A stretch of 64,000 bases of DNA from Candidatus Saccharimonadota bacterium (GTDB lineage: Bacteria; Patescibacteriota; Saccharimonadia; Saccharimonadales; Saccharimonadaceae). Positions 901 to 55,177 of the stretch are shown one piece after another. Position 1 is the first letter of the stretch. Each line of letters begins with the position of its first letter. The notes beneath the pieces are model-generated. The model was given only the letters and a program-made list of their open reading frames with translations. It ran no database searches and was not told where the DNA came from. The stretch spans positions 62,001 to 126,000 of the forward strand of contig QJZZ01000003.1 in assembly GCA_003246575.1 (NCBI GenBank), given 5' to 3'. The position numbers were made by a program, and so were the translations under genes.

Positions 901-1317
901 ATGAGTCTACAAATCACAAAATCCTATCGCAGCGAAGCCGACGAACAGGCCTATACGACGTTTCGCGCTTCCTGGCCGCACGACAAATGTCCGTTTTGTG
1001 ACCATGAGCAGACAATCGTCGCCGAGCGCCCAAATTTTCTCATCCTGAAAAATGACTATCCGTACTATGCCTACGATGGAGAGAAGGTGGCCGAACATCT
1101 CCTCGTCGTCTCGAAGCGACACATTCGCTCACTTGGCGAATGCAATGACGCCGAACGCAAAGAATTCGTCGACCTGATCGCCGAATACGAAGGACGCGAA
1201 TACAATTTCGTCCTGCGCGCGCCAGACAGTGGCCGCCGCAGCGTGGCACACCACCACGGCCATTTCATCCGCCACGAGAAACAGGCTATGGCAACCAGCG
1301 AAGACAGCATGCTATAA
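901..1317 (+). CDS. HIT-family nucleotide-binding protein
   Basis: 138 residues. The histidine-triad motif is visible as SVAHHHGHFI (residues about 112-121), the H-x-H-x-H pattern of nucleotide hydrolases and transferases. An N-terminal CPFC pair (about 31-34) could bind zinc, as in some HIT/GalT-like proteins. The middle (YPYYAYDGEKVAEHLLVVSKRH) matches the HIT fold's substrate strand. The substrate cannot be assigned. It is divergent from folA and directly upstream of the dCTP deaminase gene, whose -10 box overlaps its 3' end. Confidence 0.8.
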   Translation: MSLQITKSYRSEADEQAYTTFRASWPHDKCPFCDHEQTIVAERPNFLILKNDYPYYAYDGEKVAEHLLVVSKRHIRSLGECNDAERKEFVDLIAEYEGREYNFVLRAPDSGRRSVAHHHGHFIRHEKQAMATSEDSML

Positions 1318-1329
1318 TCGAGCAAGATT

Positions 1330-2052
1330 ATGGGAGTATATAGCAACACCGAGATTCGGGAGGCAATCGACGATGGTCGCATCGTGTGTACGCCGTTCAA
1401 TCCTGACCACATTTCCGAAGCAAGTCTCGATTTTACACTTGGTCATTATTTTTACAAGCAAGAATTTCAATCAGAGTCGACTGGTATCTACAATCCATTT
1501 GATGAGTCTGACGTCGCGCGCTATTTCAAAGGCCCGCTCGAAGCCATGCCACACAAGCAGTGGTGCGAAAAGGAGGGCGTTCCGCTCTTTGCTAATATTC
1601 CCGAAGACCACCCGATCATCGTTCTCAAGCCGGGCGAACGCATCCTTGGACACACTCACGAATTCGTCGGTATCCGCACACATGGCGGTGCGTGTGAAGT
1701 CAAGAGCCGCTCCAGCTGGGGGCGCAACGGCGTCGCAGTCTGCTTCGACGCAGGCTGGGTTGACCCAGGCTACATCAACCGCATCACCCTCGAAATCTAC
1801 AACCTTAACATGCACGAATCGGTTGTACTCCCCGTCGGCGAACGTGTCGGCCAGCTCATCTTCCATCACACCGGTCCTGTCGAAGGCGGCTACGCATCTG
1901 GTCGCGGCGGCATGAGCGGCAAGTACCAGCACACTGATGACCTCGACGAACTCATCGCTACCTGGCGTCCAGACATGATGCTGCCACGTGCGTTCAAAGA
2001 CAAGCGCAAAGCAGCGCCAACTATCGACGGACTCGCCGAGGGCATCAAATAG
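1330..2052 (+). CDS. dcd: dCTP deaminase / dUTPase-family protein
   Basis: 240 residues, longer than the ~190 typical of Dcd. The conserved core is clear: VKSRSSWGRNGV (residues about 123-134), then FDAGWVDPGYINRITLEIYN, which contains the catalytic glutamate of the TLE motif, and GERVGQLIF. Members deaminate dCTP to dUTP, some also releasing pyrophosphate, and so feed dTMP synthesis. TATAAT lies at 1313-1318, only 11 nt before the ATG. dTMP kinase starts two bases after the stop, so the two are probably cotranscribed. The ~45 extra C-terminal residues have no known role. Confidence 0.85.
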   Translation: MGVYSNTEIREAIDDGRIVCTPFNPDHISEASLDFTLGHYFYKQEFQSESTGIYNPFDESDVARYFKGPLEAMPHKQWCEKEGVPLFANIPEDHPIIVLKPGERILGHTHEFVGIRTHGGACEVKSRSSWGRNGVAVCFDAGWVDPGYINRITLEIYNLNMHESVVLPVGERVGQLIFHHTGPVEGGYASGRGGMSGKYQHTDDLDELIATWRPDMMLPRAFKDKRKAAPTIDGLAEGIK

Positions 2053-2053
2053 C

Positions 2054-2722
2054 ATGGGACGCTTCATCGCAATCGAAGGCGGCGACGGGTCAGGCAAGGC
2101 AACACAGGCGAAACTTCTCGCCGAATACGCGACCGCACAGGGCTACGACGTCCTCACGGTCAGCTTTCCACGCTACGGCAACGACTCGGCCTACTATGCC
2201 GAGCGCTACCTGAACGGTGCCTATGGCACAGCCGAAGATGTCCCGGCAGAGCTCGGAATTCTCCCGTATGCACTTGATCGTTTTGCTGCCCGTGATGATA
2301 TCGCAGCGCACCTCGCAAAAGACAAGTCACTCGTCATCGCCGATCGGTACATGGCAAGCAATCTCGCGCACCAAGGTACAAAAGTTGATGAAGTTGATAC
2401 GCGTCAAGAATTTTATCGTCGCACGATGCTCACCGAATACGATATCCTCGGCATTCCGCGTCCTGATCTCAATATCGTACTCCTTGTTCCGTCAGCTATC
2501 TCTCAGGCGAACGTCGACAAGAAAGCCGCTCGCAGCTACACCGCACTCAAGCGCGACATCCACGAAGCCGACGCGGGCCATCTCGACAAAGCCAAGCGCA
2601 ATTACGAAGAAATTTGCGAACTATATCCAAATGAATTCACGGCACTCAATTGCATGAGTGACGAGCAACTACGTCCTATCGACGATATTCAGGCATCAAT
2701 ACGAGACCTGCTTAAACTCTAG
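2054..2722 (+). CDS. tmk: Thymidylate kinase
   Basis: 222 residues from the ATG at 2054; longer in-frame extensions read into dcd and lack family similarity. The P-loop IEGGDGSGKATQ is at residues 6-17, and the DR(Y/F) motif appears as IADRYMASN. The LID region is not strongly Arg-rich. It phosphorylates dTMP to dTDP. The gene follows dcd with a one-base gap and converges on the RSH-like gene, which overlaps its last bases. Confidence 0.9.
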   Translation: MGRFIAIEGGDGSGKATQAKLLAEYATAQGYDVLTVSFPRYGNDSAYYAERYLNGAYGTAEDVPAELGILPYALDRFAARDDIAAHLAKDKSLVIADRYMASNLAHQGTKVDEVDTRQEFYRRTMLTEYDILGIPRPDLNIVLLVPSAISQANVDKKAARSYTALKRDIHEADAGHLDKAKRNYEEICELYPNEFTALNCMSDEQLRPIDDIQASIRDLLKL

Positions 2723-4224
2723 GCGTTCTGAAGTGTTCGACGAATTATATCCAGAAGGAAGCGTCCGCCCTCGACCGTGTCGCCATCAAGTACGCGCGCG
2801 CCACAATCTTGTCCGTAACACTGCTCGGCACGCTGACGACGCTCAGCAATCGCCTCAAGCATAGCAAGCATACGCGTCTTCTCTTCTGGTGCGTCCATCG
2901 AATGATCGGAGTACTGCTTGAACAATATATGCGCGGCAGGCCCGACACGAGAATTACGTCGATCTTCGCTCGTCAACATCTGAAGTTCAACTGGGATTTC
3001 GACGCCATTTTCGCCGAGTACCATGAAGGTGACTTTGAGCACCTGATATGAACGTTCATCCTCATCAATATCAGTGACCCCGTACACATCAAGTACATCC
3101 TTGGCTCGGTCTAAATACTCGCGAGAGCCCTGCACACAAACAGGAAATTTCTTCGATGGGGCATTCTGTAGACGTACGCTCGGATTGTCACCAAGACTAT
3201 CGAGCAACGCACCAAAATCATGCGCCATACTTTCATCATCGGCAACAATTGTGACGCCGAGAACATCCATCGGAAGCTCGCCATCTTGGCGCTTAATCTT
3301 CTTGGCAAGTGATCCGATTGATTTGATACGGTGTATGACTTTCGTGAAATCAAACTGGTTGGTCTTGAGCTCGCGAGTTACGAAAATAGACGTCTCGCCC
3401 TCGGACAAGCCCGTTGATCGATACTCAACGTCACCAGAATACTCACCAAAGATGAGCTCAAGTGCTTTGTCTGCGCCCATACCAACTGTGCGTTCGTGCA
3501 GATCGTTTGCGGTCGCTAGATATTCTTGACCGCCAGTCATCTCCAGCTGTAGTTTACACACCTCACTGCGCAGACGAGCAGCCATTGCATCGAGCCCCCA
3601 AATTTCGAGGAGTGGCGCATAGACTGTTTCTGCTTCAATGAGGTCGTGCAGCAGTGCACGTGGTGATTTCGGTGGGTGCATGAGATTGTCGAGTGACTCG
3701 GCCGCCTTGAGAATTACCGCCTCCATGTTGGTATTCGATGCGATATCGAGAAGCCCGACGAGATCTGGGTTCCCGAGTTTCAGGAACATTTCCGGAGGAA
3801 TAGCAGCATTTGTATCAATCTGAAGCGTTGTGCGGTAGCGCTCAGCGACTGTCTCGATAATCATGAGGTCATGGAGAATTGTCGCAGAATACTCGATTGA
3901 CTCTTGTGTCATGCCGGGCAAGTGATACCTGTCGTCCAGCGCTTGAGCGGCACGCTTACGTCGTGCCATCGATTGATCATCACCGAGCAGACGATCGGGA
4001 AGATCATGAAGGATTGCAATCTCAAAAAGAGAATTTGGGACCAGGTTGTGCCCAAACTTATCTACAATCTCAGACACACGTCCAGCATGCTCAAGAAAAT
4101 CAGTGCGTTCATTCAGACCCTCGCCGTTACGGTACCAATCTATAGTTTTTAGCGAAGCAACCCATGAGTCGTATTCGTTCATGATTTTTGGTTGCTGCGG
4201 GACTGGTTCGGTAGGTCGGGACAT
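2719..4224 (-). CDS. Divergent RelA/SpoT-homologue-like protein (HD plus synthetase-like domains)
   Basis: 501 residues. The N-terminal half resembles the HD hydrolase domain of RSH enzymes: EHAGRVSEIV, then AILHDLPDRLL (about 68-78) and LKAAESLDNL in place of the family's K-A-D-R-L-H-N. Residues about 285-440 resemble the (p)ppGpp synthetase domain (HRIKSIGSLAKKIKRQ, MDVLGVTIVADD, VELQMLTSEDRR, GPAAHILFK). The HD metal ligand Asp is replaced by Glu and the ED pair is altered, so hydrolase activity is doubtful. No TGS or ACT domain is seen. The assignment rests on motif similarity only; a -10-like TATTAT/TATACA lies just before the ATG. Confidence 0.55.
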   Translation of the reverse strand: MSRPTEPVPQQPKIMNEYDSWVASLKTIDWYRNGEGLNERTDFLEHAGRVSEIVDKFGHNLVPNSLFEIAILHDLPDRLLGDDQSMARRKRAAQALDDRYHLPGMTQESIEYSATILHDLMIIETVAERYRTTLQIDTNAAIPPEMFLKLGNPDLVGLLDIASNTNMEAVILKAAESLDNLMHPPKSPRALLHDLIEAETVYAPLLEIWGLDAMAARLRSEVCKLQLEMTGGQEYLATANDLHERTVGMGADKALELIFGEYSGDVEYRSTGLSEGETSIFVTRELKTNQFDFTKVIHRIKSIGSLAKKIKRQDGELPMDVLGVTIVADDESMAHDFGALLDSLGDNPSVRLQNAPSKKFPVCVQGSREYLDRAKDVLDVYGVTDIDEDERSYQVLKVTFMVLGENGVEIPVELQMLTSEDRRNSRVGPAAHILFKQYSDHSMDAPEEKTRMLAMLEAIAERRQRAEQCYGQDCGARVLDGDTVEGGRFLLDIIRRTLQNA

Positions 4225-4272
4225 TTATTATGTATAATACAACAAATATCCGTCTATGTCCATACCGGGGTG

Positions 4273-4301
4273 TTGTCGAACGGGGAAACATGTGCTATAC
4301 T
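4273..4301 (+). promoter_or_regulatory. Promoter of the L10 leader-rplJ-rplL operon
   Basis: TTGTCG (4273-4278), a 17-bp spacer and TATACT (4296-4301), with TG one base upstream as an extended -10. It sits just before the predicted L10 leader. Confidence 0.8.
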
Positions 4302-4308
4302 GACGCTC

Positions 4309-4372
4309 AGACATTACCAAAGACAGTAGCCGTCCAAAAGACTTAATCCGCTACCGAGGGAATCATCTTCTC
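4309..4372 (+). ncRNA. Ribosomal protein L10 leader
   Basis: The 5' UTR of rplJ contains GACAGTAGC (4323-4331) and the complementary GCTACCGAGGG (about 4351-4361), separated by a TTAATCC segment. This is the arrangement of the L10 leader RNA, where the L10(L12)4 complex binds and represses its own operon. Boundaries are approximate. The UTR continues to the start codon at 4469. Confidence 0.7.
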
Positions 4373-4468
4373 TAGTATTGTCACCGGTACGAACCATTGT
4401 TCGTCTATGTCGGACGTTTACAATACGGCCCATTCAATCAAACCCAAGCTGAAACCGAAAGGATTTTT

Positions 4469-4993
4469 ATGGCTATTTCACGCGATAAAAAACAAGCTTT
4501 GGTAGGTGAAATGACTGAGTTGCTTGCCAACTCAAAAATGACTGTGTTCGCACAGTACCAGGGACTCAGCGTTGCTGATCTGCAGGCACTTCGTGCTGCA
4601 GCTCGTGACGCCGGTGTTGTTATCAAGGTCATCAAGAACCGTTTGGTTCGCGTTGCACTTTCTGGTAACGATTCGCTGAAAGACGTAGATACCTCTAGCC
4701 TCAAAGGCCAGCTCGTCTACGCAACAAGTGACAGCGACGAAGTCGCCCCAGCTCAGGTACTCGACAAGTTTGCGAAACAACACGATGCACTACAATTCGT
4801 CGGTGCTATTTCAGGTGACGGCGCACTCCTAAACGTCGATGAAGTCAAAGCCCTTGCAGGCCTCGCCAGCAAAGAGCAGCTCATCGCCGAAGTGGTTGCA
4901 CAACTGCTTTCACCAGTCAACGACATCACCAACGGTCTATCTGGCAACCTTCACGCGTTGCTCGATGGCATCGAAGCCAAAGCTACAGCCTAA
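4469..4993 (+). CDS. rplJ: 50S ribosomal protein L10
   Basis: 174 residues from the ATG at 4469, preceded by GAAAGG at 4457-4462. The N-terminus MAISRDKKQALVGEMTELL and the segment FAQYQGLSVADLQALR are typical of L10, followed by VIKNRLVRVAL. L10 anchors the L7/L12 stalk on 23S rRNA. The longer upstream frame reads through the leader RNA and was rejected. rplL follows after 49 nt. Confidence 0.97.
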   Translation: MAISRDKKQALVGEMTELLANSKMTVFAQYQGLSVADLQALRAAARDAGVVIKVIKNRLVRVALSGNDSLKDVDTSSLKGQLVYATSDSDEVAPAQVLDKFAKQHDALQFVGAISGDGALLNVDEVKALAGLASKEQLIAEVVAQLLSPVNDITNGLSGNLHALLDGIEAKATA

Positions 4994-5042
4994 TACGCTG
5001 TACATTAACCAAGTACAATTTGCATAGAAAGGATCTACCATC

Positions 5043-5423
5043 ATGGCAGACATCAAGAAACTTGCAGAAGAACTGACTAAGTTGACAGTTCTCGAAGTAA
5101 ACGAACTCAAGAACGTCCTCAAGGACGAATACGGCATCGAGCCAGCTGCTGCAGCTGTCGCTGTTGCTGGTCCTGCTGCTGGCGACGCCGGCGCAGCTGC
5201 TGCTGACGAAAAGAGCGAATTCACTGTGAAGCTTGCTGACGCAGGTGCACAGAAAGTTGCTGTTATCAAGGCAGTTAAGGAAATCACAGGCCTCGGCCTT
5301 GGCGAAGCTAAGGCTATCGTCGACGGCGCTCCTGCAAACGTCAAGGAAAACGTTCCTAAGGACGAAGCAGAAGCAGCTAAGAAGCAGCTCGAAGAAGCTG
5401 GCGCTAGCGTAGAGCTCGTCTAG
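5043..5423 (+). CDS. rplL: 50S ribosomal protein L7/L12
   Basis: 126 residues with a GAAAGGA Shine-Dalgarno (about 5027-5033). It has the N-terminal dimerisation domain ([17 protein letters not shown]), an Ala/Gly-rich hinge (residues about 38-58) and the conserved C-terminal domain ([33 protein letters not shown]). It recruits translation factors. It is the second gene of the rplJ operon and is followed directly by a terminator. Confidence 0.98.
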
Positions 5424-5460
5424 TTTCACCCTATATATGGGCCGTTCGTAACGAAATTTC

Positions 5461-5494
5461 AAAAAAGTCGTTGACGCATGTCAGCGGCTTTTTT
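5461..5494 (+). terminator. Intrinsic terminator of the rplJ-rplL operon
   Basis: A 15-bp stem with two G-T wobbles and a GCAT loop. The 5' arm starts with AAAAAAG and the 3' arm ends in CTTTTTT. The symmetry allows it to work in both directions. Confidence 0.9.
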
Positions 5495-5575
5495 GATTGT
5501 GGAAGCTCAACAATATTTACAACGGATTCTCCAACTACACTTGTCGGACTGTGGATATGAAGCAAAAAAATGCGG

Positions 5576-5604
5576 TTGACACTCAGGATTCATTGACTTA
5601 TACT
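5576..5604 (+). promoter_or_regulatory. Strong sigma70-type promoter
   Basis: TTGACA (5576-5581), 17-bp spacer, TATACT (5599-5604). It drives the conserved unknown gene at 5666 with a leader of about 55 nt. Confidence 0.85.
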
Positions 5605-5665
5605 CGCGCGTCCTGTACAACTAAGACTGATATTACAAAAAAATACAGACAAGGAAATGCGAGCA

Positions 5666-6184
5666 ATGTCTGAACTACCAGAGAAACAAGTCAAGCGACT
5701 GAAATCACTTATTACTGAAGCAGAAACAAACCTTGCGGCAGCCAAAGAACTTTTGATGAGCGTTCTCGGCGACGACGATATGATTGTGTCAAACACTCAT
5801 TCGGCTCGCGAAGAGGTAAGCGGCAAAGTCATCGAAGGCGTCTTCGACGGCCAAATTATGGCCGGCCCCGATGGCAAAACCTACCCAGTTCCAGCCAACT
5901 ACGCCAGCAAGTCAAAGCTTGTTGAGGGCGACATCCTCAAGCTTACGATTGCCGACGACGGTGGATTCATCTACAAGCAAATTGGCCCAATTCCACGCAA
6001 GCAAATCATCGGCACACTTACACAGCACGATGGCGCATACTACGTCGAAGCAAATGGACGCGAATACCGCATCCTCCTTGCAAGCGTCACCTACTTCCGT
6101 ATCAATATCGGCGACCAAGTCACCATTATTGTTCCAGAAGACAACCCAGATGCAACATGGGCAGCCGTCGAGGCAGCACTGTAG
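5666..6184 (+). CDS. Conserved protein of unknown function (coiled-coil N-terminus, beta-rich core)
   Basis: 172 residues from the ATG at 5666. AAGGA at 5651-5655 is well spaced for this start and too close to the ATG at 5657. The N-terminus (LPEKQVKRLKSLITEAETNL) is a predicted helix. The core (VIEGVFDGQIMAGPDGKTYP, PANYASKSKLVEGDILKLTI) looks beta-barrel-like, and the end is acidic. I believe this type of protein is common in CPR genomes, but no function is known to me. The strong promoter, separate leader and terminator suggest high expression. Confidence 0.75.
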   Translation: MSELPEKQVKRLKSLITEAETNLAAAKELLMSVLGDDDMIVSNTHSAREEVSGKVIEGVFDGQIMAGPDGKTYPVPANYASKSKLVEGDILKLTIADDGGFIYKQIGPIPRKQIIGTLTQHDGAYYVEANGREYRILLASVTYFRINIGDQVTIIVPEDNPDATWAAVEAAL

Positions 6185-6204
6185 CGCACATCAATTCGTA
6201 CACG

Positions 6205-6231
6205 AAAGCGACCAAAACTGGTCGCTTTTTT
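6205..6231 (+). terminator. Intrinsic terminator
   Basis: AAAGCGACC, loop AAAACT, GGTCGCTTTTTT. It ends the 5666 transcription unit. Its T-run abuts the -10 box of the thymidine kinase gene. Confidence 0.9.
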
Positions 6232-6245
6232 GTATACTAAGTGTA

Positions 6246-6818
6246 ATGGCTAAAATTCACTTCAAATACGGCGCTATGAATAGCGGCAAATCAGACACAC
6301 TCATCAAAACCGCCTACAACTACGAAGAGCGCGGGCTCAAAGTTATCGTCATCAAACCTGGTGTCGATACAAAAGGCGAGGACAAGGTCGTCGCACGCGG
6401 TGGACACGAACGAATCGTGGACATCATCGCCGATGTCGACCTTGATATCGAAGTGGCTGTTATGAAGACACCTGATGTAGCTGTCGTCTTGGTTGATGAA
6501 GCACAGTTCCTCTCTGGCGAGCAGATTAGTCAACTCTACCGCGTCGCGAAGCAACACAATATTTCGGTCATCTGCCACGGCCTGCGCGCCGACTTTCGTA
6601 CTGCGCTTTTTCCAGGCAGTGCGCGACTATTCGAAATCGCCGACAATATCGAGAAACTTCCGACTATGTGTTTTTGCGGAAGCCAGGCCGAATTCAATAC
6701 ACGCAAAGTCGACGGCGCATACATCTTCGACGGCGATCAAGTCGCGATCGAGCAAGGTGACGTCACCTACGACAGCCTATGTGGCAAATGCTACGTCCGC
6801 GAAGGTGGCACTATTTAG
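6246..6818 (+). CDS. tdk: Thymidine kinase (type II)
   Basis: 190 residues from the ATG at 6246. The P-loop GAMNSGKSDTL is at residues 9-19, the Walker-B-like VLVDEAQFLS follows, and the structural zinc site is kept as CFCG and CGKC. It phosphorylates salvaged thymidine to dTMP, upstream of Tmk. TATACT (6233-6238) is 7 nt before the ATG and there is no Shine-Dalgarno, so the transcript is probably leaderless. Confidence 0.93.
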   Translation: MAKIHFKYGAMNSGKSDTLIKTAYNYEERGLKVIVIKPGVDTKGEDKVVARGGHERIVDIIADVDLDIEVAVMKTPDVAVVLVDEAQFLSGEQISQLYRVAKQHNISVICHGLRADFRTALFPGSARLFEIADNIEKLPTMCFCGSQAEFNTRKVDGAYIFDGDQVAIEQGDVTYDSLCGKCYVREGGTI

Positions 6819-6933
6819 GCACGGTCACGTAGCAGCAACCCTTCAGTATCGAATCCACATGTAGCTCGACTGTAGACAAAAACCACAACGTGCACCGCGA
6901 ACAAAATAGCGTACAATAGTACCAAAGGGGAGT

Positions 6934-8373
6934 ATGAGCCAAGCACTCTATCGTAAGTACCGTTCGAAGACGCTCGATGAAATCGTCGGGCAAGATCATA
7001 TCACGTCGCTATTGAAACGCGCTATTGCTCAAGGTTCCGTCTCTCACGCCTACCTCCTGACTGGCCCACGCGGTGTTGGCAAGACATCGATTGCACGTAT
7101 CATCGCCCACGAGATCAACAAGCTCCCCTACGACGACGAGTCGCAACACCTCGACATCATCGAGATTGACGCGGCTAGCAACAATGGCGTTGAGGATGTT
7201 CGCGATCTCCGCGACAAAGTCCACATCGCACCAAGTTCTGCCGAGAAAAAAATCTACATCATCGACGAAGTTCACATGCTATCACGCCAGGCGTTCAACG
7301 CGCTCCTCAAGACGCTCGAAGAACCACCTGAGCACGTCGTTTTCATCCTCGCAACTACTGACGCCGACAAATTGCCTGCAACCATCATCAGCCGCGTCCA
7401 GCGCTTCAACTTTCGTTCGATCACGCCCGGTGATGTCATCAAGCACCTGCGCTCAATCGCCGACAAAGAGAATATCGACATCACTGACGACGCACTCGCA
7501 ATCGTCGCACGTCATGGCGGCGGCAGCTTCCGTGACAGCATCGGGCTGCTCGACCAACTCCAGCACGCAAACGAATCAACGATCGATGCAGAAGATGTGC
7601 GCCGAGCACTCGGCATCACCGCCGACGAGAGTATACAAACGCTTATCGATGCCTATCGCAGCGGCGACCTCTCGACACTCGCGGGCGTCATTCGTACACT
7701 TGAGGCGTCTGGTGTGCAGGCTTCGATTGCCGCAGAACAAATCATCGAACAACTCCATGCGAGCATCATTGATCATCCTGAGGATCTCCAACTACTTGAC
7801 GACTTACTTTCCGTACACGGCAGCTCGCATCCGTATATCAAGCTCCTGAGCGCGTTAGCTCGCAATGTCGCACAGCCAACCCGCACGACAACCGTCGCCA
7901 TGGCCACGGCATCACCATCGGTCCAAACGCCCGCACAACCAGCAGCAGTGCAAAAGCCTGTAGCATCAGCGAAACCGGCGACTGCAAAAAAGGCCGCTCC
8001 CGTAGTGCCGGCAACACCAGCACCGCAGCCGGTTCAGGTTATGCAATCGACTGTCGACGCGGCGGATTTTGACTGGAACCAGCTCATAGAAGCAACTAGT
8101 GACGATATCGCTCTCAAAAGTCTCCTGGCAAAATCTTCGTACGAAATCAAAGATGACACACTAATCATTTACTGCGGCACAAAGTTCAATGCAGGCAAGC
8201 TTTCCGGCGCACGACAACTACCGAAACTCAGTGCCGCGTTGCAATCTATCGGCCATGGCGGCCTCACGGTCGATGCCAGACCCGAGAAAGCACCCCCGAA
8301 AGATTCGCAACTTGCTAGCGTAGCTGCTATCATGGGCGGAGGAGAAGAAGTAGAGTTAGCACATGGCAACTAA
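6934..8373 (+). CDS. dnaX: DNA polymerase III subunit gamma/tau, without zinc module
   Basis: 479 residues with GGGGAG before the ATG. It is the clamp-loader AAA+ ATPase: RKYRSKTLDEIVGQDH, Walker A GPRGVGKTSIARI (about 44-56), Walker B IYIIDEVHMLS, sensor 1 ATTDADKLPATIISR. Domain III and an Ala/Pro-rich linker (residues about 310-370) lead to a short C-terminal domain. The four-cysteine zinc module normally found between Walker A and the DAASN motif is missing: residues about 57-75 have no cysteine. The dnaB start overlaps the 3' end by 11 nt. Confidence 0.93.
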   Translation: MSQALYRKYRSKTLDEIVGQDHITSLLKRAIAQGSVSHAYLLTGPRGVGKTSIARIIAHEINKLPYDDESQHLDIIEIDAASNNGVEDVRDLRDKVHIAPSSAEKKIYIIDEVHMLSRQAFNALLKTLEEPPEHVVFILATTDADKLPATIISRVQRFNFRSITPGDVIKHLRSIADKENIDITDDALAIVARHGGGSFRDSIGLLDQLQHANESTIDAEDVRRALGITADESIQTLIDAYRSGDLSTLAGVIRTLEASGVQASIAAEQIIEQLHASIIDHPEDLQLLDDLLSVHGSSHPYIKLLSALARNVAQPTRTTTVAMATASPSVQTPAQPAAVQKPVASAKPATAKKAAPVVPATPAPQPVQVMQSTVDAADFDWNQLIEATSDDIALKSLLAKSSYEIKDDTLIIYCGTKFNAGKLSGARQLPKLSAALQSIGHGGLTVDARPEKAPPKDSQLASVAAIMGGGEEVELAHGN

Positions 8374-9712
8374 AGAAGTACCAGCGGGGAAAATTCCGCC
8401 ACAAAATCTTGATGCAGAAAAAAGCCTGCTCGGCGCCTGCCTCATCGATGAAGAGGTGATTGCTGATGTTGCCGAACTGGTTAGCTCAGAAGACTTTTAC
8501 GACAAGCATCATGGCCTTGTGTTTGGCGGCATGATGCGCCTGTATGAAAAACACAAACCAGTCGATCTCCTCACGCTGACTGATGAACTCAAGAAAAAAG
8601 ACGAGCTCGAAACCGTTGGCGGCTCAGCGTTCCTGACTGAGCTCACCAACTACGTCCCGTCTGCGGCACACGCGCGCAGCTACGCCGAAATCGTCGCAAC
8701 TAATGCCGTACGTCGTCGTCTCATCAAAGCAAGTGCAGATATTTCAGAACTCGGCTTCGACGAGAATACCACCACTCAAGAACTGCTCGAAAAAGCCGAG
8801 GCCGAACTATTCAGCGTCAGCGACCAATCACTTAAGCAAGATCTCGTCAGCATCGAGAGCATCCTGACGGAGAGTTTCGACCGTATTGAAGAGCTGCATC
8901 GCAACAAAGGCGAACTCCGCGGCGTCCGTACTGGCTACCGCGACCTCGACAACATGACCGCTGGCCTCCAACGCAGTGACCTTATCATTCTCGCCGCACG
9001 TCCAGCCATGGGCAAGACCACGCTCGTGACCAACCTCGCGTACAACGTGGCGACGATCGCCAAGCAACCCGTGCTCTTCTTCTCGCTTGAGATGAGTAAG
9101 GAGCAGCTCGTTGACCGTATGCTTGCTGATGCGTCTGGTGTCGACAGCTGGAATATCCGCACAGGCAACCTGAGCGACGAAGACTTCGCCAAGCTCTCAG
9201 AAGCAATGGGCGAGATGGCTGAGGCACCAATCTACATCGACGACACACCAGGTCTTTCAGTACTCGAGATGCGCACAAAAGCACGCCGCAAGCACCACGA
9301 GCAACAGCTCGGCCTCATCATCGTCGACTATCTTCAGCTCCTCCAGGCCAGCGGTAATCACCAAGGCAACCGTGTCCAAGAAGTCTCAGAGATTTCCCGT
9401 GGCCTCAAGTTGATCGCGCGCGAGCTCAATGTACCGCTGATTGCCCTGAGTCAGCTGTCTCGTACCGTTGAAACTCGCACACCGCCAGTGCCGCAGCTCT
9501 CTGACCTCCGTGAATCTGGATCTATCGAGCAAGACGCCGACATCGTCAGCTTCATCTACCGCCCAGGCTACTATGAACCAGACAACCCCGAAGTTCAGAA
9601 CATTACTGACCTTATCATCGCCAAGCACCGTAACGGTCCGGTCGGAAAAGTCCAGCTCTACTTCCACCCAGAGCGCCTCCGCTTCATGTCGCTCGACCGA
9701 AAACACGAGTAG
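8363..9712 (+). CDS. dnaB: Replicative DNA helicase
   Basis: 449 residues. The N-terminal DnaB domain (PPQNLDAEKSLLGACLID) precedes a RecA-type motor: Walker A LAARPAMGKTTLVTN (about 212-226), FFSLEMSKEQL, Walker B LGLIIVDYLQLL, SQLSRTVETR and DLRESGSIEQDADIV. It unwinds DNA at the fork. Overlap with dnaX suggests coupled expression of loader and helicase. No intein is present. Confidence 0.97.
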   Translation: MATKEVPAGKIPPQNLDAEKSLLGACLIDEEVIADVAELVSSEDFYDKHHGLVFGGMMRLYEKHKPVDLLTLTDELKKKDELETVGGSAFLTELTNYVPSAAHARSYAEIVATNAVRRRLIKASADISELGFDENTTTQELLEKAEAELFSVSDQSLKQDLVSIESILTESFDRIEELHRNKGELRGVRTGYRDLDNMTAGLQRSDLIILAARPAMGKTTLVTNLAYNVATIAKQPVLFFSLEMSKEQLVDRMLADASGVDSWNIRTGNLSDEDFAKLSEAMGEMAEAPIYIDDTPGLSVLEMRTKARRKHHEQQLGLIIVDYLQLLQASGNHQGNRVQEVSEISRGLKLIARELNVPLIALSQLSRTVETRTPPVPQLSDLRESGSIEQDADIVSFIYRPGYYEPDNPEVQNITDLIIAKHRNGPVGKVQLYFHPERLRFMSLDRKHE

Positions 9713-22411: not shown

Positions 22412-22583
22412 GAAATCATTGTAGCAAAATGCCACAGCACAATCACCATTGGTGAGACGATGAGACTCAAGGAGCAGCATCTGCATATTAGTATAGGGTG
22501 GAGGGATACTGCTACGCCACGCCGAACCCCCGAATTGTTTTGCTTCGCAAGACTTCGAGCGCTCAGATCCCAGCCCAGAGACA

Positions 22584-22624
22584 AAGTAAAATCTCGTAAA
22601 CAAAAGGCTTACGAGATTTTACTT
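22584..22624. terminator. Terminator of the tRNA-Gln locus (16-bp perfect inverted repeat)
   Basis: AAGTAAAATCTCGTAA, 9-nt loop, perfect complement. The outer flanks CCCAGCC/GGCTGGG extend the symmetry. It begins at the 3' end of the outer tRNA-Gln half. Confidence 0.85.
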
Positions 22625-22933
22625 GGCTGGGGATGAGGGATATCAATAACTTTCTTCTGGCTGGGGTGGAGGGATTCGAACCCCCGAATGCTGGGACCAG
22701 AACCCAGTGCCTTACCACTTGGCGACACCCCAATGTCTACCAGAAGAAAATTATCGAATTGTCAAAGTGGGATTCGACCTACTCGTCGATTTCGCCGAAA
22801 TCGCTCGTAGGCTCGCCTCAGTCGGTGAGGGTGAACCTCATCCGGCTTCCGGCCTTGCGAACTGCCACCGGCAGTTCTCACCCCGAATGCTGGGACGATG
22901 GACCTCGGCGCCTTACCACTTGGCGAATCCCCA
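22624..22933 (-). pseudogene. Interrupted tRNA-Gln (outer), with a second tRNA-Gln inside
   Basis: The 5' half begins at 22933 with acceptor TGGGGAT and D-arm GCCAAGTGGTAAGGC, and stays similar to the inner tRNA-Gln up to CCCAGCATTCGGGG. The 3' end at 22624-22639 carries T-stem CCCTC, acceptor ATCCCCA (7/7 complementary), G73 and CCA. Between them lie about 110 nt of hairpins (for example GAACTGCC/GGCAGTTC and CGATTTC/GAAATCG) and the complete inner tRNA. The anticodon stem is disrupted and no mature tRNA can be drawn, so it is called a pseudogene, though it is likely transcribed from TTTACC-17-TACACT just upstream. Confidence 0.6.
22658..22732 (-). tRNA. tRNA-Gln (anticodon CUG)
   Basis: A complete cloverleaf: acceptor TGGGGTG/CACCCCA, D-arm GCCAAGTGGTAAGGC, anticodon stem CTGGG/CCCAG with loop TTCTGGT (anticodon CUG), T-loop TTCGAAT, encoded GCCA. 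Leader and trailer pair over 15 bp (14 matches; CCAGAAGAAAATTAT against 22646-22660), placing the tRNA at the tip of a long stem. With only GluRS in the window, charging is probably via Glu-tRNA-Gln amidation (inference). Confidence 0.93.
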
Positions 22934-54929: not shown

Positions 54930-55177
54930 TGGTACCGCGAGCCGGACTTGAACCGGCACGTCCCGAAGGACACAAGATTTTGGGCGCAGCGTTGCCTGTA
55001 GACAACCGACTGGCGCAAAAAGTATCTATTTGGTGGGCCAGGGGGGACTTGAACCCCCACTCACGATTGTGAACCAGATTTTGAGTCTAGCGCGTCTACC
55101 AATTCCGCCACCAGCCCATCAAATAGATACTTTTTAAAAATTGCTGTGGCAATTTCTACCAATTCCACCATCGCGGC
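54930..55177 (-). pseudogene. Interrupted tRNA-Leu (outer), with tRNA-Leu(CAA) inside
   Basis: The 5' part at 55177 has acceptor GCCGCGA and D-arm GGTGGAATTGGTAGA. The 3' part has a long variable arm (TGTCCTTCGGGACG), T-arm GCCGGTTCAAGTCCGGC, acceptor TCGCGGT, A73 and CCA at 54930. Acceptor strands pair 7/7 (one G-T). The anticodon stem's 5' strand is missing; in its place are hairpins (AAATTGC/GCAATTT; GTTG/CAAC within a GCGC..GCGC stem) and the complete inner tRNA-Leu. A TTGACA box lies upstream of the 5' end and a terminator follows the 3' end. Confidence 0.65.
55031..55117 (-). tRNA. tRNA-Leu (anticodon CAA)
   Basis: A complete class II tRNA: acceptor GGGCTGG/CTGGCCC, D-arm GGCGGAATTGGTAGACGC, anticodon loop CTCAAAA (CAA), long variable arm, T-loop TTCAAGT, A73 and encoded CCA. 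Leader and trailer carry a perfect 15-bp inverted repeat (AAAAAGTATCTATTT at 55017-55031; complement at 55121-55135), so the tRNA tips a long stem. Confidence 0.95.

Follow-up and report, generated by a model that had tools for sequence, protein, structure and literature searches.

Saccharibacteria carry a previously unlisted repeat, an element of three hairpins lodged in broken copies of tRNA genes. One copy lies at 22778-22881 of the window, as we call the whole analysed stretch of 64,000 nucleotides (G000:C4:62001-126000, part of a 931-kb genome in four contigs). The three hairpins covary and keep to one strand. The element sits in a loop on the sense strand of a broken tRNA copy that has an intact tRNA of the same kind as its neighbour; copies have spread between loci, and the host genes are found in native as well as in split states. 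We assign a probability of roughly 55% to the reading that 22778-22881 is a copy of a small mobile structured element which spreads among the tRNA genes of Saccharibacteria and is tolerated where an intact tRNA stands beside or inside the broken one. In these reduced genomes most tRNA genes are essential and present once, yet this structured repeat appears to favour them as its home.

Architecture of the tRNA-Gln(CTG) locus

All parts of this locus, and all parts of the sister tRNA-Leu(CAA) locus, lie on the minus strand. Read along that strand, the tRNA-Gln locus consists of the following features.

22882..22933, minus: outer 5' half, remnant of the native tRNA-Gln(CTG) (TGGGGATTCGCCAAGTGGTAAGGCGCC...CATTCGGG), with acceptor 5' strand TGGGGAT, D-arm, degenerate anticodon arm and T-stem 5' strand; matches the intact tRNA-Gln(CTG) of G002 (L028)
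22778..22881, minus: three-hairpin element, body type A, 104 nt, in place of part of the outer T-loop; repeated in relatives
22767..22777, minus: 3' strand of the outer T-loop and T-stem, TCGAATCCCAC, assigned from its letters
22740..22753, minus: left arm of the leader/trailer stem (TAATTTTCTTCTGG), a 15-nt stem with one mismatch; same stem in L229/L114
22658..22732, minus: intact inner tRNA-Gln(CTG), called by ARAGORN; Rfam RF00005, 61.3 bits
22647..22660, minus: right arm of the leader/trailer stem, its first letters being the inner CCA; from stem search and fold
22624..22643, minus: outer 3' half ATATCCCTCATCCCCAGCCA, with T-stem 3' strand, acceptor ATCCCCA, G and CCA; 7/7 pairing with the outer 5' acceptor, matches the G002 gene
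22584..22624, minus: long A/T-rich terminator-like hairpin 3' of the outer CCA, seen in the alignment
22496..22537, minus: further broken T-arm copy (CAATTCGGGGGTTCG, insert, TATCCCTCCACCC) with a small T-loop insert of another kind; comparable inserts in L088, L090, L091 and L108

The sequence-only reading had described a tRNA-Gln(CUG) nested in a split tRNA-Gln, with correct coordinates and base counts. We confirm this arrangement: the outer TGGGGAT...ATCCCCA-GCCA encloses an intact tRNA-Gln(CTG), and the reported leader/trailer repeat of 15 bp is matched at 14 positions, with one mismatch (ATAATTTTCTTCTGG versus CCAGAAGAAAGTTAT). The acceptors of the two copies differ, the outer one reading TGGGGAT/ATCCCCA and the inner one TGGGGTG/CACCCCA. 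In the predicted fold of the 313-nt strand the outer acceptor stem is closed with a probability of 0.79-0.98 and the inner tRNA-Gln forms a cloverleaf on a stalk. Both halves of the outer tRNA are present as claimed, but its anticodon arm has lost pairing and does not contain CTG as anticodon. Judged by its sequence, the outer copy is therefore not a working tRNA. The GC-rich hairpins of about 110 nt had also been seen; what was overlooked is that they are a covarying element repeated at many tRNAs. A terminator had been proposed after the outer CCA, and a strong hairpin is indeed found at 22624-22584, but a simple terminator scan made no call on it. The window element is matched by the R1 model at 22882-22794 with 35.7 bits.

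Sister loci and the tRNA complement of the genome

A similar nested arrangement occurs elsewhere in the window.

55155..55177, minus: outer 5' half of the native tRNA-Leu(CAA); matches the intact genes of G001 and G002
55031..55117, minus: intact inner tRNA-Leu(CAA), whose type occurs in other genera; 92-97% identical to g16/g18 Leu(CAA)
54930..54981, minus: outer 3' half of the native tRNA-Leu(CAA) with CCA; the downstream gene is syntenic with G001

Outer and inner tRNAs belong to the same family at both window loci, as had been noted. The claim that one design at two loci argues against chance holds in that the arrangement is beyond chance, but the designs are not identical: the three-hairpin element was not found at the Leu(CAA) locus.

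ARAGORN called 39 tRNAs in the genome, with Gln(TTG), Gln(CTG) and the full set of five Leu tRNAs among them; the outer copies are therefore unneeded for decoding. No tRNA-Ser and no Arg(ACG) were found in this assembly, for which contig gaps are a possible cause. The sole tmRNA call, a doubtful one, was made over the Leu locus and was rejected, having no Rfam support at the gathering threshold. Repeats of at least 11 bp flank only Gln(CTG) and Leu(CAA) among the 39 tRNAs, their stems having 14 and 16 matches, respectively. Shuffling gave at most 9 for these two regions and up to 14 at a few other genes.

Broken halves of the same type as the adjoining tRNA occur on both sides of Glu(TTC), as 5' halves at Lys(CTT) and Thr(GGT) and as 3' halves at two Met genes. 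This makes Glu(TTC) the third nested locus of the genome, in which GGTCTCATCGTCTAA and the element precede the intact tRNA, followed by ATTCCCGGTGAGATCACCA and then a hairpin. Further nested cases, which the sequence-only reading had named as support, thus exist in this genome, in another genus (Gln(CTG), L229/L114), and among sampled relatives, where both outer halves were present in 20 of 138 tRNA loci. The tRNA-like ends are kept in relatives, which goes against the refuting case named by that reading, an unrelated RNA at 22733-22933 with no such ends in relatives.

Native and possible replacement tRNAs

For both window loci, intact genes of the outer type exist in genomes of the same genus. 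In G002, of the same genus, a simple tRNA-Gln(CTG) has the acceptor TGGGGAT/ATCCCCA of the window's outer halves, a comparison made on sequence and not on synteny. Intact Leu(CAA) genes of the outer type (GCCGCGG...) exist in G001 and G002, both of the same genus, and the gene downstream of that in G001 is syntenic with the window, with 76% identity over 251 residues (tblastx). The inner Leu(CAA), on the other hand, had no match in G001 or G002 at E <= 1e-12. Since the outer halves match these intact genes, at both window loci a native tRNA was split, with an intact tRNA of the same anticodon now inside it. The outer tRNA-Gln is, judging by its sequence, the native gene type in broken form.

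In G144, which belongs to another genus (L229/L114), the same leader/trailer stem surrounds the inner Gln(CTG) and the nested design is intact; TCGA stands on both sides of the inner cassette there (L114) and is degenerate in the window. Un-nested Leu(CAA) genes of other genera (G019, G117) have similar leader/trailer stems of different sequence, judged by eye, and therefore the stem seems to be a property of the inner precursor rather than an insertion scar. Across genera, Leu(CAA) stems (L281, L284 and L283 versus window 55017-55135) are similar in pairing and differ in sequence. This suggests that the Leu(CAA) stem may be a conserved precursor structure.

Structure of the element

Copies are about 90-110 nt long and consist of three adjacent hairpins (H1, H2 and H3) set directly within the closing tRNA stem, with the common motif GTGAGAACTGCC-loop-GGCAGTTCGCAAGG. 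Two kinds of body occur, A of about 105 nt, to which the window copy belongs, and B of about 90 nt. A GTGAG foot and H1 are seen in the alignment of 101 copies (92 of them distinct), which was fitted to the model. Here 97.4% of paired cells pair, and 28 of the 32 pairs show double changes. The covariation score was 0.550, against 0.166 for shuffled and at most 0.086 for slid alignments, and none of 500 shuffles scored as high. A plain MAFFT alignment of 17 copies (0.534 against 0.199) agrees with the model-fitted one. Outside one fixed G.U pair, G.U is found 48 times and A.C 12 times (p = 1.6e-6). This excess implies that the structure is selected on one strand, namely that of the tRNA.

Distribution

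A DNA search with the window locus found two more copies: one in the same genome, 79% identical and located upstream of tRNA-Glu(TTC), and one in G001, upstream of tRNA-Gln(CTG). In a first search of the family the element was present in 30 of 151 genomes, nearly always adjoining a tRNA. With a covariance model built from 17 type B copies, it was found in at least 77 of 394 family genomes and in 24 of 61 genera. The large multi-genome searches used stricter filters and scored eleven candidates per genome, so that copy and genome counts are lower bounds; many of the surveyed genomes are metagenome bins. Up to 16 copies per genome occur, with 88 copies in 12 genomes.

Among 380 genomes from across the phylum, matches were confined to this order, in three of its families. 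When 84,980 species were scanned for the exact motif, nearly all records with a match were titled Saccharibacteria, Saccharimonadia, Patescibacteria or unnamed bacterium, and one was labelled 'Parcubacteria'. No element match was found in viral, phage and plasmid collections. When the window and L112 were compared with Rfam at E<=5, only tRNA was significant, with no match to group I or II introns, ribozymes, HEARO or tmRNA. We found no description of the element in the open-access literature.

Position in tRNA loops

Of the 88 copies in the 12 genomes, 77 have a tRNA called by ARAGORN at no more than 300 bp, and 76 of these 77 share its strand; by our own estimate (40 tRNAs, 300-bp margins, 0.9 Mb), about 3% would be expected by chance. 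An independent exact-motif set from named genomes gave 41 of 45 near a tRNA, all 41 on the same strand. The distance between element and tRNA is typically about 40-120 bp.

The flanks of the element are themselves tRNA halves, usually of the neighbouring tRNA. The left flank ends and the right flank starts about 2 nt apart, near tRNA nucleotides 25/28, 30-38/33-41 or 53/56. These sites correspond to the D/anticodon junction, the anticodon loop and the T-loop. In T-loop copies the right flank starts from tRNA nucleotide 55-57 and about two T-loop nucleotides are gone. A clean insertion is seen in L115 (GGG^GTTCGATT), and in L127 one tRNA-Glu remnant bears an element in each of its three arms. 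Copies downstream of a tRNA typically show this order: intact tRNA with CCA, hairpin, T-arm reverse complement, T-stem, element, 3' part of the T-loop to CCA, hairpin.

For a few copies no tRNA was called nearby and the surrounding sequence has a structure of another kind, which counts against the main reading. They read GGGTGACGTTCGGCGGGG, element, CGCCCC...CGGACGGCAGGACCC; one is upstream of rpsB and one upstream of tRNA-Cys, and Rfam gave no match at this context. The element there occupies a GGGG/CCCC stem (L225 1694-1784, L140 1501-1590 and L220 4415-4504). Of a different kind is L113 (1448-1610; G131:C3:251264), where a tRNA-like sequence stands alone; it has an element in the T-loop, an acceptor stem and an anticodon stem lengthened to 10 bp, and no tRNA was called in this 3-kb locus.

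Spread between loci and conservation of outer ends

For 52 of the 84 copies compared, the closest relative lay within the genus but at another tRNA (shuffled mean 27.6, maximum 40 in 1000 runs); for only 5 did it lie at the same tRNA. This indicates that the element spreads between tRNA loci. Copies 99% identical within one genome, located at Glu and His (G139), Lys(CTT) and Lys(TTT), or Gln(CTG) and Gln(TTG), require copying between loci, by transposition or by gene conversion. Insertion need not be involved, since gene conversion could produce such movement.

Conservation was uneven at four Glu loci from three genera: identity was 97% in the outer 5' 15 nt, 95% in the outer 3' 20 nt, 75% in the element and 99% in the inner tRNA, with linkers and flanks at or near the shuffled background. 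The outer ends, kept at 95-97%, are thus maintained, whether selection acts on them or the inner gene converts them. Such conservation suits retained function or gene conversion better than it would suit dead remnants. The idea that outer acceptors are generally unlike inner ones was dropped, the outer acceptor strands being equal to the inner in 10 of the 20 loci with both halves.

Candidate movers

Two enzymes were considered as possible movers of the element. Reverse transcriptase (PF00078) occurs in 10 of 24 genomes and is missing from carriers G072, G073, G101, G139, G029, G019, G171 and G167, several of the genomes without it being high in copies; it was rejected for this inconsistent presence. 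Of 15 carriers 9 have the Y1 transposase (PF01797), as does 1 of 9 genomes without the element, a suggestive enrichment, but its absence from the high-copy genomes G017 (11 copies) and G101 (14 copies) speaks against it as the mover. No constant target-site duplication was found at element copies.

At one locus (L217, G017:C1:126000-137500) a large serine recombinase, an HTH protein and a type III restriction-modification pair occupy positions 1039-8423. The cluster has tRNA-Gln(CTG) on one side and, 9 kb from this tRNA, a broken copy with the element on the other, and the end of the recombinase gene overlaps the 3' end of the tRNA. The tested ends of this serine-recombinase element showed no direct repeat longer than 10 bp. 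This G017 locus is the exception, as nearly all loci have no integrase between the halves.

Discussion

The element may copy itself by insertion into loops of tRNA genes or of their transcripts, the insertion taking place at the level of RNA or single-strand DNA. Survivors would be those insertions that leave an intact tRNA, the host having duplicated the gene or imported a replacement. In the window, the element would have struck the T-loop of the native tRNA-Gln(CTG). Decoding would be left to the intact tRNA-Gln(CTG) inside this outer copy, which brings a leader/trailer stem of its own. Insertion would be tolerated because an intact tRNA stands beside or inside the broken one. We propose only tentatively the wider picture of an RNA module that multiplies in tRNA loops through a transcript or single-strand DNA and survives through tRNA duplication or replacement, the tRNA genes of Saccharibacteria being split, nested and replaced by this parasite time and again. 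Should the element be mobile, it would be a parasite of tRNA loops and a route for the splitting and inter-genus exchange of essential tRNA genes. If instead the broken copies have a function, they form a class of tRNA-derived RNA that is new. In both cases these are precise and recurrent loci, open to tests in cultured Saccharibacteria.

This latter possibility, that broken copies are functional tRNA-derived RNAs whose acceptor ends are seen by tRNA-processing enzymes and whose loop elements serve as a regulatory, decoy or processing scaffold, deserves attention, even if we consider it rather improbable. Its strongest point is the 95-97% conservation of outer halves across genera next to linkers and flanks at or near background, and the strand-specific covariation, the pairing of the outer acceptor in the predicted fold and the lone tRNA-like L113 with its T-loop element and 10-bp anticodon stem fit it as well. 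A fixed function is hard to reconcile with the varying site of the element (D, anticodon or T; upstream or downstream) and with its patchy presence, 317 of 394 family genomes being without a match and one genome of the same genus without the element; moreover, half of the two-sided outer acceptors equal the inner ones, so that gene conversion could explain the conservation. It is doubtful that the loci are scars of integrative elements with tRNA attachment sites, in which the intact tRNA was rebuilt and the three-hairpin module belongs to the site. Right-hand copies do resemble the 3'-half repeats of tRNA integration, and the G017 recombinase and type III restriction system lie between tRNA-Gln(CTG) and a broken copy. 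Left-hand 5'-half copies and two or three elements per tRNA misfit a single crossover, however, and integrases between the halves, phage, plasmid or viral matches and direct repeats over 10 bp at the tested G017 ends are wanting from nearly all loci, from the collections and from that element, respectively.

Tandem tRNA duplication followed by neutral decay, with hairpins that arose by chance, would account for equal outer and inner acceptors at 10 of 20 two-sided loci and for near-complete left copies such as L152 and L174. It is contradicted for the hairpins, which covary strongly and belong to a conserved family. Conservation also extends to the outer ends but not to the linkers, and the outer halves of the window Gln and Leu loci differ in gene type from the inner tRNAs; we thus think this explanation unlikely to be correct. 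Least credible of all is an outer tRNA, split or intron-bearing, that is spliced into a second working tRNA-Gln: its acceptor strands pair 7/7 and differ jointly from the inner pair, but the anticodon arm is unpaired and without CTG, T-loop copies lack about two nucleotides of that loop, neither group I nor group II introns gave a match, and intact tRNAs for Gln and Leu codons are already present.

The element, read as a small mobile repeat of tRNA genes, can be compared with several known systems. Like REP sequences and MITEs served by Y1 transposases (RAYT), it is short, forms hairpins, occurs in many copies, has no ORF and shows a short foot before a mismatched hairpin; it differs in having three hairpins and in residing in tRNA loops instead of general intergenic DNA, and the Y1 gene is missing from two genomes with high copy numbers. 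Group I introns of bacterial tRNA genes are likewise structured RNAs in a tRNA gene, but the element is about 90-110 nt long, uses several loops, has no Rfam match and does not restore its host tRNA. At tRNA attachment sites of genomic islands, too, a 3'-half repeat stands beside an intact tRNA, whereas most of our loci have no island and include 5'-half copies and a structured element. Archaeal split tRNA genes also have their acceptor halves apart with other sequence in between; here, in contrast, the outer copy lacks a usable anticodon arm and an intact tRNA lies inside. Duplicated tRNA genes and pseudogenes share the broken copies adjoining an intact gene, but here the broken copies have a common covarying insert and conserved ends.

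Other T-loop inserts and T-arm palindromes

Right-hand broken tRNA copies may carry a second kind of T-loop insert (the window copy at 22496-22537 and those of L088, L090, L091 and L108), which reads GGTTCGGCG.AG.G...AAAGAAAGCAGCG..GCTATTTTCTTT...GAGCGGAGGAG...CGATATCC. Reverse complements of the T-arm beside an element-bearing T-arm, on the right-hand side in L095/L200, L102 and L118 and on the left-hand side in L174 and L226, create palindromes at the edge that faces the intact tRNA. These palindromes could mark fold-back synthesis or a strand switch.
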